Virus record (IMG/VR): IMGVR_UViG_3300023242_000004
Span: 1 to 64,000 of that record
DNA from: a virus
DNA: 64,000 nt
Direction: 5' to 3' (one strand)
A program made the position numbers and the translations under genes. A model generated the notes under the pieces. It made no database searches. It saw nothing but the letters and a program-made list of their open reading frames with translations, and was not told the origin of the DNA. Positions 1-31,040 of this stretch are shown piece by piece (position 1 is the first letter of the stretch; every line of letters begins with the position of its first letter).

Positions 1-84
1 TAAACGATTAGTGGTTTTTAGTTTTACAAACCCATTGGTAAGATGGTGTACCTCAAAATTAGGGTCTTTGCGATTAACGTCCAG

Positions 85-443
85 TGGAGTAGTTGGGGCT
101 CGAACCCAAGTCTTACTAACTCTTCAATGCTTTCTAGGATTATAGGTCATAGTTTTTTTAAACTATCCTAAAATTTACTACCTCTTTTTACCGTGTAATT
201 TAAGTTTCACACCATGGACTACCATTATTTAGTAGATTACTACAATCAAGTGGATTACCACTATGTGTGATATTAGGCTACCGCAAGCTCTCCGTTGAAG
301 CTACATGTAGCTTCGTCAAGGAAATTTTCTGATACGATGAAATCGTTGTCAATTCAATTTTTAATAGGTTATTTAAGTGTTTCCATATAACACTAACCCC
401 TTACTATTTACGACTGTTAGCAATCAAATCCAAAGTCTACCCC
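85..443 (-). ncRNA. ssrA: tmRNA (transfer-messenger RNA)
   Basis: Rescues stalled ribosomes by acting first as tRNA-Ala and then as mRNA for a degradation tag. The 5' end reads GGGGTAG-ACTTTGGATTTGA, matching the conserved start of Bacteroidota tmRNAs. The seven-base acceptor strand pairs completely (one G-U) with CTACTCC at 86-92. Next to it is a T-arm, TTGGG-TTCGAGC-CCCAA (93-109). A P2-like helix pairs GGTTAG with CTA(TG)ACC. PK1 is visible as AGTGTT/AACACT with loop bases ATA-GG pairing to CCTAT. Downstream of the tag, three small hairpins (GTGG/CCAC, GTAG/CTAC, ATGG/CCAT) are enclosed by CACAC/GTGTG. The length of 359 nt is close to the 363 nt of E. coli. CCA is not encoded: the acceptor is followed by ACTGG. 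What is seen is the pairing; function is inferred from the family. Confidence 0.9.
273..350 (-). other. tmRNA tag reading frame (about 25 codons)
   Basis: Frame inside the tmRNA that ends GGA-GAG-CTT-GCG-GTA-GCC-TAA, giving a C-terminus NGELAVA. This resembles the hydrophobic Ala-rich ends of SsrA tags. An in-frame TGA lies at 356-354. The likely resume codon is GAC at 350-348, about 13 nt after PK1 and with A at position -4. The tag would begin DNDFIVSENF and total 25 residues, longer than the usual 8 to 15. An 18-nt perfect palindrome (GAAGCTACA/TGTAGCTTC) lies within it, in the place of helix P5. The exact resume codon is inferred. Confidence 0.6.
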
Positions 444-535
444 ATATTTTATTATTTGTTAATCGCTTACAGTTTACGACTATATTCAGTCAATACCGTG
501 GTATCCCCATAAAATTAAAGAACTTTTGATTTATA

Positions 536-569
536 AATATGTGAGTTCAGATTAAAAAACTCACATATT
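536..569. terminator. 12-bp perfect hairpin between clpP and tmRNA
   Basis: AATATGTGAGTT (536-547) pairs perfectly with AACTCACATATT (558-569) around a 10-nt loop. It lies just downstream of the predicted start site of the tmRNA transcript and after clpP. It has no strong T-run on the minus strand, so it may be a processing or stability hairpin in the tmRNA leader instead of a terminator. Confidence 0.4.
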
Positions 570-582
570 CTAAATCTTTTTA

Positions 583-613
583 CAAAGGTACTAACATTTT
601 TAGTAAAATGCAA
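583..613 (-). promoter_or_regulatory. Bacteroidota-type promoter for tmRNA
   Basis: Minus strand TTGC (613-610), 19 nt, TACCTTTG (590-583). This fits the Bacteroidota -33 TTG / -7 TAnnTTTG consensus and is nearly identical to other promoters in this window. The start site would be near 576, giving a leader of about 130 nt before the tmRNA 5' end. Confidence 0.65.
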
Positions 614-623
614 GTATTTTGTA

Positions 624-1358
624 TTATTTTTTTGTTTTTGCTTTTGTTTTTGTTGTAATAACACCATCAACTATACCATAAGCTAACGCTTCTTCAGCAT
701 CTAACCATAAATCACGACTAGCGTCTTTCATAACTTGTTTTGGGTCTTTATTAGTATATTGACCCAACAAAGCGAATAACTTATCATTATATTTTTCACC
801 CTCAGCGATTGATACCCTAATATCTTGAATGTTACCAGAAGCGCCAGTTGATACTTGGTGTAACATAACTCTGGAGTTAGGTAACATATAACGCTTACCT
901 TTGGTCCCAGCACCTAAAAGAATACTACCCATACTTGCAGCCATACCTGTGTTAATTGTAATAATATCAGAGGATATATAATTCATAACATCAACGATTG
1001 ATAAACCAGATTTTACTGAACCACCTGGACTGTCTACGTGAAGTGTAATGTCTCTAACTTCCAAGTTATCCATAAACATCAATTGTGCTTGTACCACCGT
1101 ACTCATTCTATCGTTTACTGGACCAGCTAACCAAATTATTCTATCCATCATTAATCGAGAGAAAATATCCATTTGTGTTACACGCATTTCTCTTTCTTCC
1201 AAAATGTATGGTGTCAAAGAAGCGTTCGCCCCTTGAAATGTCGACATAACCGTTGGATTATATATTGAGTTTTGTAATCGTTCCCAATTAGCAAACTCAT
1301 ATTCAGTAACACCAATATGTTTGGTAGCGTAATCTTTAAATTCGTTTGTATAATTCAT
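624..1358 (-). CDS. clpP: ATP-dependent Clp protease proteolytic subunit ClpP
   Basis: Serine peptidase of family S14, 244 residues against about 200 for bacterial ClpP; the extra length is an N-terminal extension of roughly 50 residues. The catalytic triad is visible: Ser142 in GMAASMGS, His167 in MLHQVS and Asp216 in SRDLWLDAEEALAYGIVD. The motif VDSPGGSV (109-116) forms the oxyanion-hole region. No ClpX or ClpA ATPase is seen here, so it may use host unfoldases, or process phage proteins as a prohead protease; both are inference. It is last in a run with 1373-1798 and 1798-2232, probably transcribed from the promoter at 2267. The adjacent tmRNA, whose tagged products are classical Clp substrates, makes a functional link attractive. 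The poly-Lys/Thr tail (TTKTKAKTKK) is unusual. Confidence 0.93.
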   Translation of the reverse strand: MNYTNEFKDYATKHIGVTEYEFANWERLQNSIYNPTVMSTFQGANASLTPYILEEREMRVTQMDIFSRLMMDRIIWLAGPVNDRMSTVVQAQLMFMDNLEVRDITLHVDSPGGSVKSGLSIVDVMNYISSDIITINTGMAASMGSILLGAGTKGKRYMLPNSRVMLHQVSTGASGNIQDIRVSIAEGEKYNDKLFALLGQYTNKDPKQVMKDASRDLWLDAEEALAYGIVDGVITTKTKAKTKK

Positions 1359-5424: not shown

Positions 5425-6876
5425 TTAAACCGTTACTACCGAGTAACGTTCAGAGTCGATAACTGACATCATCATTGAGATTGGTGTCATGTCTTTACCA
5501 CCTAACAAGTTAGTAAGTAAAGATGGGCTAAAACCAGACACCAAAGCAGTGCCATTCGTATCGAACTGAACTGGTTTGTTGTTATCACCTCTAGATTGGA
5601 TATTCCAATATACAATACTAGGCATTTTGTACCCAGCATCTTCGTACATTGTATGAATCATCTCTTGAGCAGTTGGGTTCCATTTGTTAGTACTACGGTA
5701 ACTATTAACTGCCGAATTGAACTCCATATCTGACAAGATAAGAATCATAGTTGGCATCTCATCCCCAGAAACATTTAAAGCTTTTGCTTTTGACAACACA
5801 AGGTTAAATACAGCTTCTAAGTTTGTAGACATCGCCCAATCAGCTCTAGCTAATTGATTGTATCTGTCATTCAACGAACCCTTAAGGATTTGAAGAGTTG
5901 GATATTCGGAAAACGTTACGAAAGCGTCTTGGAATGGACCAACATTTCTTTCAGAGATATATAATCCCAAAGAGATTGCTACATCCATACAAGTTACATT
6001 AGCGTTTCCACCAACTGGACTTTCCATTGACCCCGAAACGTCAACAACTGGAAGTACTCTTTCCGCACTACCTTCCATAAAGTTAGGTAAAGCATCCCAT
6101 TGTACATTAGCACCTTTGGAGTTACCTTGCTTTAGGTTTTTAACTATGTCGTATGGGTACACAGCACCAGCGTTAATTTTTGCTTCACCTTTCTCAACCG
6201 AAGTTAAGTAAGTTTGAAAACGCTCCAAGTCATTTTTTGAGAACGCTTTCATCAAGTCACTCATCGCTTTTGAAGGCAATTTAGAATACTCAATTTTAGA
6301 CCACTCTTTAGCGCACATCAATTGCTCAACTGTGTTAGAGTTTTCTACCAACAATTTACGGTACTCTTTTGGAGTTAACCCTAAATGTTTTCTTAAAGCG
6401 TTTGCCCATCTTTTCTTTTCACGGTTATCTACATTTGGACGTGGCATCCATTTACCCACCAATTTATTATTATTCGCTAACCCATCAGCGATTAATGATA
6501 GAGCATCAGACTCCAAAGGTGTACCCACTAGTACTAATAAGTCATCCCAACGACCAAACTCACTAATCAAGTTCAAGTTTTTACGTAACGTTTCCGTTCT
6601 GTTTTCAGCTAAATATTCGATGATGTCTCTAAAAACTTTACGTTCTCCAGCACCACCTCTTATATCACGTGCCCAGAATAAAAGCCGCATTGCAGTCAAT
6701 GTATCTTCACTAAATGCTTTGGTGAACACGTTGATTAGACGTTGTTTATCTTGACCTCTCATAGCACCAATCTGGAAGAATAAATCAACACAGTGGTTCA
6801 ACGAAGAAGAATTAGTAGACATCCCGTTTTCAGTTAACGAATTTTTTGTTTGCATAGCATTTAATAATGTACTCAT
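5425..6876 (-). CDS. Ro60/TROVE-like vWA protein (DUF2828-like)
   Basis: Protein of 483 residues with two parts. The N-terminal roughly 250 residues are helical repeats resembling the HEAT-like ring of TROVE/DUF2828 proteins (WARDIRGGAGERKVFRDI at 68-85). A C-terminal von Willebrand A domain starts near 272, with an intact MIDAS DVSGSM (Asp279, Ser281, Ser283), a later Thr in the region 340-370 and DMEF as the last metal-site strand. TROVE proteins of this architecture bind Y RNAs and damaged structured RNAs in bacteria and animals. Here RNA binding is inferred from fold only. It has its own strong promoter (6909-6939) and stands alone, away from the replication and virion operons. Confidence 0.8.
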   Translation of the reverse strand: MSTLLNAMQTKNSLTENGMSTNSSSLNHCVDLFFQIGAMRGQDKQRLINVFTKAFSEDTLTAMRLLFWARDIRGGAGERKVFRDIIEYLAENRTETLRKNLNLISEFGRWDDLLVLVGTPLESDALSLIADGLANNNKLVGKWMPRPNVDNREKKRWANALRKHLGLTPKEYRKLLVENSNTVEQLMCAKEWSKIEYSKLPSKAMSDLMKAFSKNDLERFQTYLTSVEKGEAKINAGAVYPYDIVKNLKQGNSKGANVQWDALPNFMEGSAERVLPVVDVSGSMESPVGGNANVTCMDVAISLGLYISERNVGPFQDAFVTFSEYPTLQILKGSLNDRYNQLARADWAMSTNLEAVFNLVLSKAKALNVSGDEMPTMILILSDMEFNSAVNSYRSTNKWNPTAQEMIHTMYEDAGYKMPSIVYWNIQSRGDNNKPVQFDTNGTALVSGFSPSLLTNLLGGKDMTPISMMMSVIDSERYSVVTV

Positions 6877-22497: not shown

Positions 22498-25308
22498 CTA
22501 TTTTACGCTAATACTAGACAGATTATCTTTTTTAATAACTGTAATAATATTATTTGACCAATCCTTCACCAAATCATTGTGCGTAATAAAGAAAACAATT
22601 TCATACATATCTTTTATTTTATCAAAGAGATTTTTCAATTTTTCTAAATTTTCTGATGCCACTTTACCTAATACTTCATCAAAAGTAATAAAGTTAGGCA
22701 TAGGTAAAGTAGATAATTTACCTAACACTGCTCTAAGTGCTAAACTAGCCGCTGTTTTCTCTAACCCAGAACCAGATTTTAGTAATTTAGATATACCATC
22801 TTTAACCATTAAAAATTGGACATCGTTCTTATCATTCATAGATATCTCAATATCGAAATCTACAACATCTTCTAACAATCTTTGTGCTTCAGAATTAATA
22901 ATCGGTAAAACAGAACGCAAAACTAATTTACTAATACCTTTCTTACCAACCAACTCGATATAAATCTTGAAAATCTTATCAACTTCTTCTTCTTTTTTTA
23001 TCGTTTCTATTAATTTTGTTTTAGTGATAACACTAGTTTTATTGGTTTGTATATCTGCTTGAACCCTTTGTATGTTTATAATTGTTTGGTCTTTTGAATA
23101 TTCGCAAACCGCTAATTTTGTTTTAACGTCGATAACTTTAATCTCTATTTTTTTATTAAACTCAATAGCATGCAAATTAAGCTGATATTTTTTAAGGTCA
23201 TTTTTCTTTGCGATTACATCATTTCTCAACGAACCCATTTCAACTTCCATTCTATCAACATTTAACTCTAGTTTATTTTTGTTATCAATTAGCAATTTGT
23301 TTTCATTTAAAGTAGTTAATTTAGCAGATAACGAATTTAACGTTTCATCAACACCCAAAACTTCTTTTCTTAAATTTTCTATTTCCAATTCATGTTTAGT
23401 TATGTGTAGTGAGTTATCCACATCATCTAATTTTCTATTACACGATTGACAAACACCACCAGCAATCAAACCAGTCACAACTTTTTCAAGCCTTGTTATC
23501 TCAGCCTCTTTTAACGCTTTATTTGTAGTGTTTACATTAAAATCTTTAGAGAATTCTAAATGTTTATCTTCATCAAAATCAATTTCACCAATTGCGGTTA
23601 TCTTAACTTTTAACCCAGCAACCTTTTCTTTAAATTCAACACCTTTATCAATTAATTTATCAACTTCACTTTCTAATTTTTCTGGGTTAAGTTCTGAAAT
23701 GGTAACGTCGATTTTTTCTTTGCTATCGATTAAATCGTCTTTACTATCAGTAAGTGTTTGGATTTCAGATTTAGTGTTACCCAATTTTTGTTTTAACTCA
23801 ACATCTAATTCTTCACCCAAAATAATTTTATCATTATGGTCATCTATTTCTTCACCTAAAGTAATAACATCATATTCATTAGATTTTTTCTTCCTAGCAA
23901 ATTCATTATACATTTCTCTAGCCGCTTTTTCTTTAAGTTCTAGTATTTCTAAACCAATAAGCCTAGTTAAAATTTTTCCAGATTCAGTTGTAGTCAAACC
24001 AATAAGGTCGTCTAAGTTTTTTTCTGTTGCCAACACTAACATCTCAAAATCTTTTTCACTACCAATAGTTTCTTTAAGCCTTCTAGTTGTTTGAGTAGCG
24101 TCTTCTTCATTTAACGCTTCTTCTTCACCATCTGGAAGTATTCTGTAGTAGTTAACTCTATTTGTAACAGTCCAACCACCATCTTTTTTAGCCGTGCGTC
24201 TCATTTTACGCTCAATGATAGTCTCTTCACCCTCAATTTCAATCATACCTCTTACTACTAGTTCGTTCTTATTACTGTAGGTGTTGAAGATTTGTTCGTT
24301 TGTGTCTGTTTTTGTTGTGTTACCATGTAACAAAAATTTAATAGCGTCAATAGTTAAAGTTGTATTATGAGAAACTATACCATTGGAATAATATTGGTGG
24401 ACTTCATCTACTTGAATATCATATAGAGTATCTTTGAAATCCATCAACTTAATAGATTTAACATTAGATATTCCATTAACTGTTTGAATCCGCTCACCAA
24501 CTTCTACTTCTTTTAAAACGACAAATTCACCATCTTCTTTTTTAAGCCTGTGATAGTCAGCGCCCTCAACATATTTTCCATCTTCAAGCTCACAGCGATA
24601 TACATCCGCATTCTCTTCAGTGATACCACACCAAGTAATATCTTTATACCCGTAAGGTGTATTAACCTTAAAACCTAAATCACCATATTTTTCATATATC
24701 GAATTTAACTCACCGATTGTTATTTCGTCTGGTAAAACCCCTATTTTTTTACCTATTTCTTCCTTATCAAATTGTATATTTATCCGAGTGTCAGACCTAA
24801 CACATTTACCACCTTGATTAGCTGGAATTGAATTTACTATAGTTAAACCTTTTAATTTGCTAAAAGGAACGTAATTACTTTCACCAAAGGATAAGAAATT
24901 ATCTATCATAAGCCATTTAATTGACCAACTTCTATGTGTTGTTTGCGTTAAATCAACATTTAATTCACCGTTTACCTTGTCATCTAAAGCAACAATACGG
25001 TTGAAATCAACATTCTTACCATCTCTAGTAATTAACTCTTTCATAAGCGCTCTTTGATAGTTAACATCCATGATGTTCTCCATACCAGCACCAGTGATTT
25101 CAATGGCATCACCATCGGTATTGAACCTAACTGGTCTATAAACAACCGTTATATTATTTTTTTGAACACCGTACTTGTTAGCTATATAGTTTCTAATCTT
25201 ATTTTTGGCCTCTTTGCTGTAGTTGTGTGGTTGGTCATCCCAATATACTTTAATCTTGGAATACGGTGATATTAATGTGTTATCTAATGTATCTGTTTTA
25301 TTCGCCAT
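22498..25308 (-). CDS. gp46: gp46/SbcC/Rad50-like recombination nuclease subunit, intein-containing
   Basis: ATPase subunit of the gp46-gp47 (Rad50-Mre11) complex that resects DNA ends for recombination-dependent replication. The precursor is 936 residues and 789 after splicing. An N-terminal extension of about 125 residues precedes the ATPase start (IKWLMIDNFLSFGES). The Walker A loop (ANQGGK-TTLTID) is interrupted by a 147-residue intein (169-315). Long coiled coils flank the zinc hook GGVCQSCNRKLDD. The C-terminus has a signature-like LKSGSGLEKTAASLALRAVL, a Walker B segment (MPNFITFDEVLG) and a final switch His (VFFITHNDL). Without splicing the nucleotide-binding loop cannot form. It overlaps the coiled-coil gene upstream by 11 nt. 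Confidence 0.92.
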   Translation of the reverse strand: MANKTDTLDNTLISPYSKIKVYWDDQPHNYSKEAKNKIRNYIANKYGVQKNNITVVYRPVRFNTDGDAIEITGAGMENIMDVNYQRALMKELITRDGKNVDFNRIVALDDKVNGELNVDLTQTTHRSWSIKWLMIDNFLSFGESNYVPFSKLKGLTIVNSIPANQGGKCVRSDTRINIQFDKEEIGKKIGVLPDEITIGELNSIYEKYGDLGFKVNTPYGYKDITWCGITEENADVYRCELEDGKYVEGADYHRLKKEDGEFVVLKEVEVGERIQTVNGISNVKSIKLMDFKDTLYDIQVDEVHQYYSNGIVSHNTTLTIDAIKFLLHGNTTKTDTNEQIFNTYSNKNELVVRGMIEIEGEETIIERKMRRTAKKDGGWTVTNRVNYYRILPDGEEEALNEEDATQTTRRLKETIGSEKDFEMLVLATEKNLDDLIGLTTTESGKILTRLIGLEILELKEKAAREMYNEFARKKKSNEYDVITLGEEIDDHNDKIILGEELDVELKQKLGNTKSEIQTLTDSKDDLIDSKEKIDVTISELNPEKLESEVDKLIDKGVEFKEKVAGLKVKITAIGEIDFDEDKHLEFSKDFNVNTTNKALKEAEITRLEKVVTGLIAGGVCQSCNRKLDDVDNSLHITKHELEIENLRKEVLGVDETLNSLSAKLTTLNENKLLIDNKNKLELNVDRMEVEMGSLRNDVIAKKNDLKKYQLNLHAIEFNKKIEIKVIDVKTKLAVCEYSKDQTIINIQRVQADIQTNKTSVITKTKLIETIKKEEEVDKIFKIYIELVGKKGISKLVLRSVLPIINSEAQRLLEDVVDFDIEISMNDKNDVQFLMVKDGISKLLKSGSGLEKTAASLALRAVLGKLSTLPMPNFITFDEVLGKVASENLEKLKNLFDKIKDMYEIVFFITHNDLVKDWSNNIITVIKKDNLSSISVK
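24364..24804 (-). mobile_element. mini-intein in the gp46 Walker A loop
   Basis: Residues 169-315 of the precursor: starts at Cys169 (CVRSDTRINIQ), ends VHQYYSNGIVSHN, and is followed by Thr as +1 nucleophile. At 147 residues it contains only splicing blocks (block B-like YHRLKKEDG, blocks F/G at the end) and no endonuclease. Removing it restores GGK-TTL. Confidence 0.9.
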
Positions 25309-29207: not shown

Positions 29208-30995
29208 TTATAAGTTTTTCATTAAATTATAGTGATGCATTTCAATAAGTTTTTTTGCTTCATGTTTAAGATACATAATTTGAATTTTTTCAAAACTTTT
29301 TTTCTCTTTATCCCAATACCCAATACATATTTGTCTACATTTACGCCCAGGAAACTCTAATTCATACATATATGTGTAAACACTTAACTGAAGAGTATAA
29401 ATCGACCATTGACACGATTGTAAATGGTCAAAAGGTTTAAATAATGTTTCATAACCATATTGGTTGAAGAAGTTAAACTCTCTGTTTGTGTTATGTGTTA
29501 CTGAAAATGTATCACCATACAAAAATGTTTTAGTTTCACTTTCAACCTCAATACACCTAGTTGGTACTGACTCAACTAAATTAACTGATACTATGTTTTT
29601 AAAACTTCCATTATCAGTTAATCCATATTCTACACCTATTTGGTTTCGACACAAAAATGGGTTAAATGATTTAGTACTAAATAAAACATCAATAACGTCA
29701 ATAATTTTACCATTTGCTTTTTTCTTATAATAAATGACTGTTGGTTTTACACCTAGACTACTAATCAATTGTGTGAATGCTTTAGATTGCCATTCTCTTG
29801 TGGTAGACATCACAAACCTTTTACGAGTTTTATTATAGTATCCATCACTATCCATGAAACCACGTAAAATAAGTAATCGTTGTTCATACGAGCCATGTAA
29901 ATATATTTCTGGTAAATGTTTATTATTTAACAACCCCAATTCACGTAATTTAGTTTGTAAACCAAAAATTGTCCTAGTACTAGCTTTCCCACAACCACCT
30001 TGACTAACATCCTCACCAACTTCATGACCTCTACGTCTTATCTCAGACCATATCTCTTCATTCATATTATTTATCTTCCCATCAGCTGAATGACCATCAC
30101 CAAGCCAAACACCAAAAAGATACGGGTCAATTGGTAAATTAACAATATCATTATTTAGTGGTTTAGCTATTTTAATTTTAGGAATTTTATGTGACCATCT
30201 TTTACCACTATCATTTAATTCTTTTACATAATGATATAATTCTTCGGTTGTCATTACCTTATCTTTAAAAACCTTATCCCTATAAAAAGAAACTAACCAT
30301 CTATGTTCAAAATCTGAAACTATTTTCTCATTGTTATCAAAATTTATTTCATAACAAGTCTTATTTTTAACTTCTGATGTGTGTAGTATTTTACTTAATT
30401 TACCATTAATATCATAAACATTATCCGCTTTTGATAACGTACCCATAGTTTTCCAACCATTACTTGTGAATATTGGTGTGTCAATAGGTAGACCTTTCCA
30501 ATCCCACACATCAAAGTATTTATCATTAATATCTATGATAAGGTCAGACATACCAGCTAACTCGTATTGTTCAGAAAATAATATACGCTCTGGCCACATT
30601 GCTATACCCTCATCAATTTTTAACCCATTAAAACCATCTATAACACATTGTTCAAACTCACCTTCTTCATCATCTGTTGGAAAATACCATTTATTGGCTA
30701 ATAAATAACGCTCAACAATATCATGAACCTTATTGCCATATACATTAGCTTCATCATTAAGCATTTGCCAAAAATCAAGTATTTGTTGTTGAGTTAAACC
30801 GAGATAACGTTCTTGTTTAACGTTATCTAATTGGTTTACGATAGCCGCTGACACCCCCTCTGAATCAAAGTGCGGTTCAATCGATGAAAGGGTTGTCGTA
30901 ACCGACTTATAAGTCTTACCAGTTACCCTGTGATGGTATTTATGTTCTATTGGCTCTAGAAATACTGGCCCTTCCCATAATTTAGCTTTACTCAT
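29208..30995 (-). CDS. Cas4/RecB-like PD-(D/E)XK exonuclease, intein-containing
   Basis: Start placed at ATG 30995 (MSKAKLWEGPVFLEPIEHKY) because the promoter lies at 31010-31017. The precursor is 595 residues from this start and 260 after splicing. The extein has early family blocks (GKTYKSVTTTLSSIEPHFDS), YGNKVHDIVERYL, LAGMSDLIID and WDWK-TNRE; the DWK-T pair gives the catalytic D-x-K. The C-terminus (WSIYTLQLSVYTYMYELEFP) includes the Q-x-x-x-Y motif of this fold. The intein sits exactly after the catalytic Lys. Likely a single-strand exonuclease in DNA replication or repair. It lies immediately upstream of the Dda-like gene. Confidence 0.85.
   Translation of the reverse strand: MSKAKLWEGPVFLEPIEHKYHHRVTGKTYKSVTTTLSSIEPHFDSEGVSAAIVNQLDNVKQERYLGLTQQQILDFWQMLNDEANVYGNKVHDIVERYLLANKWYFPTDDEEGEFEQCVIDGFNGLKIDEGIAMWPERILFSEQYELAGMSDLIIDINDKYFDVWDWKGLPIDTPIFTSNGWKTMGTLSKADNVYDINGKLSKILHTSEVKNKTCYEINFDNNEKIVSDFEHRWLVSFYRDKVFKDKVMTTEELYHYVKELNDSGKRWSHKIPKIKIAKPLNNDIVNLPIDPYLFGVWLGDGHSADGKINNMNEEIWSEIRRRGHEVGEDVSQGGCGKASTRTIFGLQTKLRELGLLNNKHLPEIYLHGSYEQRLLILRGFMDSDGYYNKTRKRFVMSTTREWQSKAFTQLISSLGVKPTVIYYKKKANGKIIDVIDVLFSTKSFNPFLCRNQIGVEYGLTDNGSFKNIVSVNLVESVPTRCIEVESETKTFLYGDTFSVTHNTNREFNFFNQYGYETLFKPFDHLQSCQWSIYTLQLSVYTYMYELEFPGRKCRQICIGYWDKEKKSFEKIQIMYLKHEAKKLIEMHHYNLMKNL
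29490..30494 (-). mobile_element. LAGLIDADG intein in the exonuclease (Gly at position 1)
   Basis: Segment of 335 residues between WDWK and TNRE. It begins GLPIDTPIFTSNGWKTMG, a typical block A apart from Gly in place of Cys or Ser. It includes DFEHRWLVSF (block B), two LAGLIDADG-type motifs (LFGVWLGDGH and LRGFMDSDGYY) and ends YGDTFSVTHN with +1 Thr. The first codon is GGT, one base from TGT (Cys). Confidence 0.88.
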
Positions 30996-31009
30996 ATTTA
31001 CTTTTATTA

Positions 31010-31040
31010 CAAAGATACGAAATTTTATTCTACATTGCAA
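31010..31040 (-). promoter_or_regulatory. Bacteroidota-type promoter for the exonuclease/Dda operon
   Basis: Minus strand TTGC (31040-31037), 19 nt, TATCTTTG (31017-31010), 15 nt before ATG 30995. Confidence 0.65.

Follow-up and report, generated by a model that had tools for sequence, protein, structure and literature searches.

A phage-borne gene for a complete one-piece tmRNA with an alanine identity pair is located at positions 82–443, on the minus strand, of the window, the 64,000-nucleotide stretch of DNA analyzed here, which is the first 64 kb of the 94.8-kb virus record IMGVR_UViG_3300023242_000004. The gene is best explained as the working tmRNA of a large tailed phage that infects Bacteroidota, with a role in ribosome rescue and protein tagging, present here in a copy made by recombination, and a probability of about 0.8 is given to this reading. 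Confidence that the gene is a tmRNA gene is high, and confidence that the RNA functions in the phage is moderate. The original prediction of a tmRNA, which did not give the strand, is supported, and four features absent from it are described below: a long tag that differs from the host tag, a linkage to clpP with SmpB and ClpC encoded in relatives, a rewritten helix, and a truncated tmRNA upstream of the intact one.

Identity and fold of the tmRNA gene

When the whole window was scanned with cmscan, the tmRNA family RF00023 was the sole RNA family above its gathering score, with a match at 82–443 (minus strand) that covers the full model (positions 1–374) at 52.4 bits (E = 9.2e-18), the Rfam cut-off being 47 bits. 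The extent of 85–443 originally proposed, for which a covariance-model search had been suggested as a check, lies within this significant match and is exactly the encoded body, with G1 at position 443 and the discriminator A73 at position 85. The claimed seven-pair acceptor and T-arm were likewise recovered, since the acceptor GGGGUAG/CUACUCC is paired at 7/7 positions, including G3-U70, and the T-stem UUGGG/CCCAA at 5/5, with a T-loop of TTCGA; the CCA end is not encoded, as had been stated, and positions 82–84 read CTG. In helix 2, both the upper segment (H2a, TGCTAAC/GTTAGTA) and the segment H2b (GGGGTT/AATCCT) are paired and co-varying. The minimum free energy of the RNA is −84.5 kcal/mol, with a z-score of −2.37 against dinucleotide shuffles, none of which was as good (0/100). 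A tRNA pseudo-hit was ruled out because the model is matched over its full length and the tag is constrained, and a two-piece tmRNA was ruled out by the contiguous, one-piece order. ARAGORN called no tmRNA in the window, missed most core members of the family described below, and mis-assigned the tag in two others (L004 and L005), which bears out the earlier remark that such genes are easily missed by tRNA finders.

Conservation of the structure in related phages

Relatives were collected by searching viral contigs with the window clpP gene, which yielded 80 loci; a tmRNA above the Rfam cut-off was present in 32 of the 44 clpP-bearing records, often directly downstream of clpP. The set was enlarged by two pattern scans and a profile search to 45 distinct viral-contig tmRNAs, most of which adjoin the same clpP gene. 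The phage origin proposed for the gene agrees with its position in a 94.8-kb virus record and with its close relatives, which are viral contigs of up to 368 kb. The nearest named relatives of the window ClpP are uncultured phage genomes of 634–642 kb and the Lak phages, and a near-identity search against named phages gave no match. Exact-pattern scans of viral contigs found no other copy of the window's type of tmRNA or of its 3′ flank, and the pattern of its 3′ end matched only one contig (L043).

Compensatory changes, which had been named as a further check, are present in the related phages. RNAalifold predicted 48 pairs in 36 aligned tmRNAs, 33 of them with at least one double change. In a second comparison, the helix strands of these 36 tmRNAs were anchored by hand, and the control consisted of 3′ strands shuffled among the sequences; pairing reached 97.2% in the acceptor (mean 74.6% with shuffled partners), 100% in the T-stem (77.8%), and 93.5% in upper helix 2 (83.5%). 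Shuffling of partners leaves the relatedness among the tmRNAs in place; the acceptor nevertheless occurs in 17 sequence types, nearly all of which keep pairing, and this is hard to obtain by descent alone despite the kinship. The first stem of PK1 and the G3-U70 pair are conserved in 36/36 aligned tmRNAs, including that of the window. The structure of the tmRNA is thus under selection in this clade.

A long tag conserved at the protein level

The tag reading frame, which had been claimed previously, is open in the canonical register at 273–350 (minus strand), from the resume codon GAC (348–350) to the stop codon TAA (273–275), and its 25 codons encode DNDFIVSENFLDEATCSFNGELAVA, with the C-terminus ELAVA. 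The same frame was found in 37 tmRNAs, with 25–26 residues and a consensus of roughly [DG]NDFIVSENFLxEAxxSFxGE[LV]AVA; the VSENFL block occurs in nearly all clade tags, and the whole frame is conserved rather than the C-terminal residues alone. For the 31 distinct sequences that share one length, pN/pS was 0.38 in the tag frame and 1.04–1.07 in the shifted frames, and third-position differences dominate in the tag frame. The tag is therefore under protein-level selection across the clade. In the more distant phages of the set, the tags have about 21–27 residues, the start codon being judged by eye.

The commonest tmRNA tag length overall is 10 amino acids (PMC11915505). When loci matching the pattern of the Bacteroidota host tag GENNYALAA (nine amino acids) were run through ARAGORN, 83 of the 86 calls returned that tag; as the loci had been chosen by the tag, this shows its presence in Bacteroidota and not its frequency. 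Host and phage tmRNAs share the one-piece form, the Bacteroidota-type promoter, and the host phylum, but the phage tag is 25–26 residues long and resembles the host tag only in its small-hydrophobic C-terminus. The DNA pattern of the phage tag, as tested, was absent from 84,980 species genomes, by which an origin of the gene in sequenced bacterial species was ruled out. A separate tmRNA above the Rfam cut-off was observed in the Prevotella phage Lak-B1 (L298:1501–1910, corresponding to positions 414201–414610 of the record), where it lies far from clpP in a genome that also encodes SmpB; its tag, read by eye, is DDEIEFRMAA.

Partner proteins and the proposed fate of tagged products

The tmRNA gene lies immediately downstream of a clpP gene of cellular type (624–1358, minus strand; PF00574, E = 2.9e-57), the product of which keeps the Ser/His/Asp triad when aligned to a solved ClpP (PDB 1y7o). 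SmpB (PF01668) is encoded in 11 of 32 related records, all 11 of which bear a tmRNA; of the 8 records with a tmRNA that reach 230 kb or more, 7 encode it, and the SmpB protein scores above the NCBIfam TIGR00086 cut-off. In 9 of 18 records (PF10431), a large AAA+ protein was found that combines Clp_N with two AAA modules; the best solved relatives of one such protein (L303) are ClpC, at 767 bits, vs. 665 bits for ClpB, and an MGF or IGF motif occurs where ClpC has its ClpP-binding loop, a position assigned by analogy. In several records, an RF-1-domain protein with GGQ is encoded near the tmRNA and might release stalled ribosomes. The large relatives carry a phage-borne kit that would serve rescue and degradation, consisting of tmRNA, SmpB, ClpC, ClpP, and the GGQ protein. 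As separate observations, the short RF-1-domain protein at L005:8046–8447, in which GGQ is intact, resembles the C-terminal part of RF1 more than ArfB, and an intein-like segment (..YYTNGILSHNT) seemingly splits the ClpC gene at L306:1433–3094, immediately ahead of its conserved AAA part.

In the proposed mechanism, the phage tmRNA would be matured and charged by the host tRNA nucleotidyltransferase and AlaRS and, together with phage or host SmpB, would enter ribosomes stalled on truncated mRNAs, which would be abundant during the destruction of host mRNA. The tmRNA would then add A-DNDFIVSENFLDEATCSFNGELAVA to the stalled products, and the tagged products would pass to the phage ClpC-ClpP, or perhaps to the host ClpXP, with ribosomes and amino acids being returned. 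That the tag feeds the phage ClpC-ClpP is an inference. A more specific proposal, in which trans-translation is private to the phage, with the phage tmRNA and SmpB adding a phage-specific tag of 25–26 residues that is read by the phage ClpC-ClpP and poorly or not at all by the host ClpXP, and in which the tmRNA gene is a target of homing-type replacement that the window copy escaped by rewriting of the helix, is put forward tentatively, with the odds somewhat against it; for the private ClpC-ClpP pathway itself, confidence is low to moderate.

The strongest competing explanation, which comes fairly near to even odds, accepts a functional phage tmRNA but holds that the tag mimics the host signal, with the host SmpB and ClpXP acting on it and the length of the tag being neutral. 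The LAVA end of the window tag is close to the LAA-type signals of ClpX, and LVA and AAV variants are known degradation tags (PMC9382460), so it may be the host ClpXP that in fact consumes the tagged products. In addition, SmpB, ClpC, and the RF-1 protein were all looked for and not found on the 94.8-kb record of the window itself, which is a fragment. Neutral length is, however, difficult to reconcile with the conservation of the entire 25-residue frame and of the VSENFL block, or with the retention by clade phages of their own ClpP, ClpC, and SmpB. The short tag of Lak-B1, which has a ClpP homologue as well as SmpB, also speaks against it and indicates that the length of a tag is not dictated by its being in a phage tmRNA.

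An unlikely explanation at this locus is that the clpP product is a prohead (head maturation) protease whose position is incidental, so that tmRNA and proteolysis are unrelated here. The best PHROGs family of the protein is indeed phrog_94, annotated as "head maturation protease," but the best NCBIfam model is cellular ClpP (PRK14514) at 234 bits, a score below its strict equivalog cut-off, vs. 80 bits for the head-maturation protease model. Moreover, the large relatives encode a ClpC with the ClpP-binding type of loop, and the adjacency of clpP and tmRNA is kept across many records. The reading of the gene as a phage tmRNA with a rescue and tagging role is preferred.

Relation to known systems

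Both tmRNA and SmpB are already known from huge phages, several of which were predicted to infect Bacteroidetes (Al-Shayeb et al., 2020; PMC7162821), and these resemble the present clade in their large size and in the combination of the two genes. In the available portions of that report, tmRNA genes were sought with ARAGORN, which here misses or mis-tags many members, no long conserved tag is described, and clpP is absent from the main text. Phage-borne tmRNAs of other lineages include those of the mycobacteriophage Bxz1 group and Bacillus phage G (PMC4131195), which were known earlier, and that of Melnitz (PMC9004378), which is two-piece, in contrast to the one-piece form here; no such tag family is described in the available portions of these two sources. 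In the latter, tmRNA was found by ARAGORN in 2.3% of 18,146 phage genomes, a frequency that is probably an underestimate, since this standard finder misses or mis-tags much of the present family. Pairing of a long tag with another protease has a precedent in the tmRNA of Mollicutes: the tag of Mesoplasma florum, which is also long and divergent, ends in NYAFA and is read by Lon (PMC9382460). The phage tag is unrelated to it in sequence, and its candidate protease is ClpC-ClpP.

The features that go beyond the known phage tmRNA and SmpB are the long conserved tag, the set of SmpB, ClpC, and GGQ proteins in the large relatives, and the odd copy in the window. A literature search found no long conserved phage tag, no clpP-tmRNA linkage, and no truncated tmRNA before a rewritten one, an absence that does not by itself establish novelty. 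Earlier work has listed phage tmRNAs more than it has explained them, and a non-host tag that is under protein-level selection and accompanied by SmpB, ClpC, and ClpP makes their purpose directly testable. If the proposal is true, large Bacteroidota phages may run their own line of quality control and disposal, and a new pair of degradation tag and protease would follow, as with the Mesoplasma tag and Lon.

A truncated tmRNA and the mosaic origin of the intact copy

A second, truncated tmRNA (the stub) stands upstream of the intact gene at 465–508 (minus strand) and consists of nucleotides 1–44 of the clade's usual form; in pairwise alignment with relatives, it is 100% identical to L002 and L103, and nhmmer matched it to model positions 1–44 (E = 3e-7) and found it to be the only such tmRNA fragment among about 100 loci. 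From the end of clpP through the promoter, the leader hairpin, and these 44 nt, the sequences of the window and L002 agree almost completely, with one short gap. The stub breaks off at GTAAGC, and the intact tmRNA begins 21 nt later, after a spacer (444–464, minus strand) that has no counterpart in relatives.

The claim that the tmRNA has its own host-type promoter holds in part. A Bacteroidota-type site, TTG-N20-TACCTTTG, is present at 583–613 (minus strand), and promoters of this type occur upstream of 30/36 tmRNAs but in only 7/720 shuffles; the site stands before the 44-nt stub, however, with the intact gene behind, and presumably drives both. Between the promoter and the tmRNA is a leader hairpin, ATGTGAGTT...AACTCACAT (539–567, minus strand), which also occurs in close relatives. 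A boxA-like motif, GTTCTT(TAA), is present at 518–523 (minus strand), with 15 nt separating it from the stub downstream and 80 nt from the intact tmRNA; GTTCTT was found upstream of 35/36 tmRNAs, and in all of these but the window its distance to the 5′ end is 13–16 nt. The presence of this motif before phage tmRNAs is perhaps related to antitermination or processing. The intact tmRNA is flanked by a perfect 9-bp inverted repeat, with GCGATTAAC at 458–466 paired to GTTAATCGC at 70–78 (both given for the minus strand); 13/2000 shuffles reach 9 bp, and the repeat may serve as a stem for processing or be left over from an insertion.

In the intact copy, the segment of helix 2 that is GCATGT/ACATGT in 35/36 aligned tmRNAs differs in the window alone, where the 5′ strand is GGGGTT (395–400, minus strand) and the 3′ strand carries the compensating change to AATCCT (136–141, minus strand), so that all six pairs are kept. 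By region, the closest relative of the window tmRNA is L043 at the two ends (78% and 77%), L002-type genes in the tag (86%), and L136 and L024 in the pseudoknots (75% and 72%). Judged from these similarities, the intact tmRNA is a mosaic; it presumably uses the promoter of the stub. Recombination, probably of the homing type with gene conversion, would have given rise to this arrangement: most of the resident tmRNA would have been replaced by the intact mosaic, in which helix 2 is rewritten, and the promoter, leader, and first 44 nt of the resident gene would have been left behind.

Endonuclease genes of the GIY-YIG or endonuclease VII/HNH type adjoin the tmRNA in five relatives (L002, L015, L020, L040, and L067), and the GIY-YIG enzyme of L002 (L002:6252–6887) belongs to the homing endonuclease family phrog_314 (E = 3.6e-37). 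The stub breaks (GTAAGC^ATGTAGTG) at a site that ranks among the most conserved in the gene, and the same site is rewritten in the intact copy, which fits replacement by a cleavage-resistant allele. Beside the window tmRNA, no homing endonuclease was identified in the 81 nt left before the contig end, and confidence in homing-driven replacement, which is suggested by these comparisons, is low to moderate.

It is doubtful that recombination left the window with a pseudogene behind the stub, decaying or non-functional, within a family that is otherwise functional. The window copy lies behind a truncated gene without a 5′ end signal of its own, lacks the GTTCTT spacing that is kept by 34 other members, and has a covariance-model score below those of many relatives. 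All diagnostic helices are nevertheless intact, including the six compensated pairs of the rewritten helix, the tag frame is intact with its stop codon, the 9-bp inverted repeat encloses the RNA, and maturation by RNase P would not need the GTTCTT motif. That the stub and the intact gene were joined as a chimera of metagenome assembly is unlikely, even though the metagenome contig stops 81 nt past the tmRNA and the junction is absent from the other viral contigs scanned. The two parts share no long sequence where they meet that an assembler could collapse, both strands of the rewritten helix match each other inside the intact copy, and a chimera would explain the join only and not the unusual tmRNA itself. 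A working tmRNA copy made by recombination is therefore the favored account of the locus.

Past the tmRNA, an open stretch of 27 codons (..FEVHHLTNG..; 1–81, minus strand) runs off the contig, with no Pfam match and no related DNA found; its reading as an HNH endonuclease, based on VHHLTNG, was dropped because of the missing Pfam match and its dissimilarity to the endonucleases of relatives. In other phages of the set, one GIY-YIG family (MAR.EK.IHYIYKTT...YYIGMHST) occurs directly or shortly downstream of the tmRNA (L002, L015, L040, and L010). Elsewhere in the window, a DUF2828/DUF7788 protein is encoded at 5425–6876, an intein-like segment occurs in an SbcC-type protein at 22498–25308, and a 610-residue protein at 29208–31040 has a weak LAGLIDADG/homing match; inteins or endonucleases thus appear to be common in this phage.
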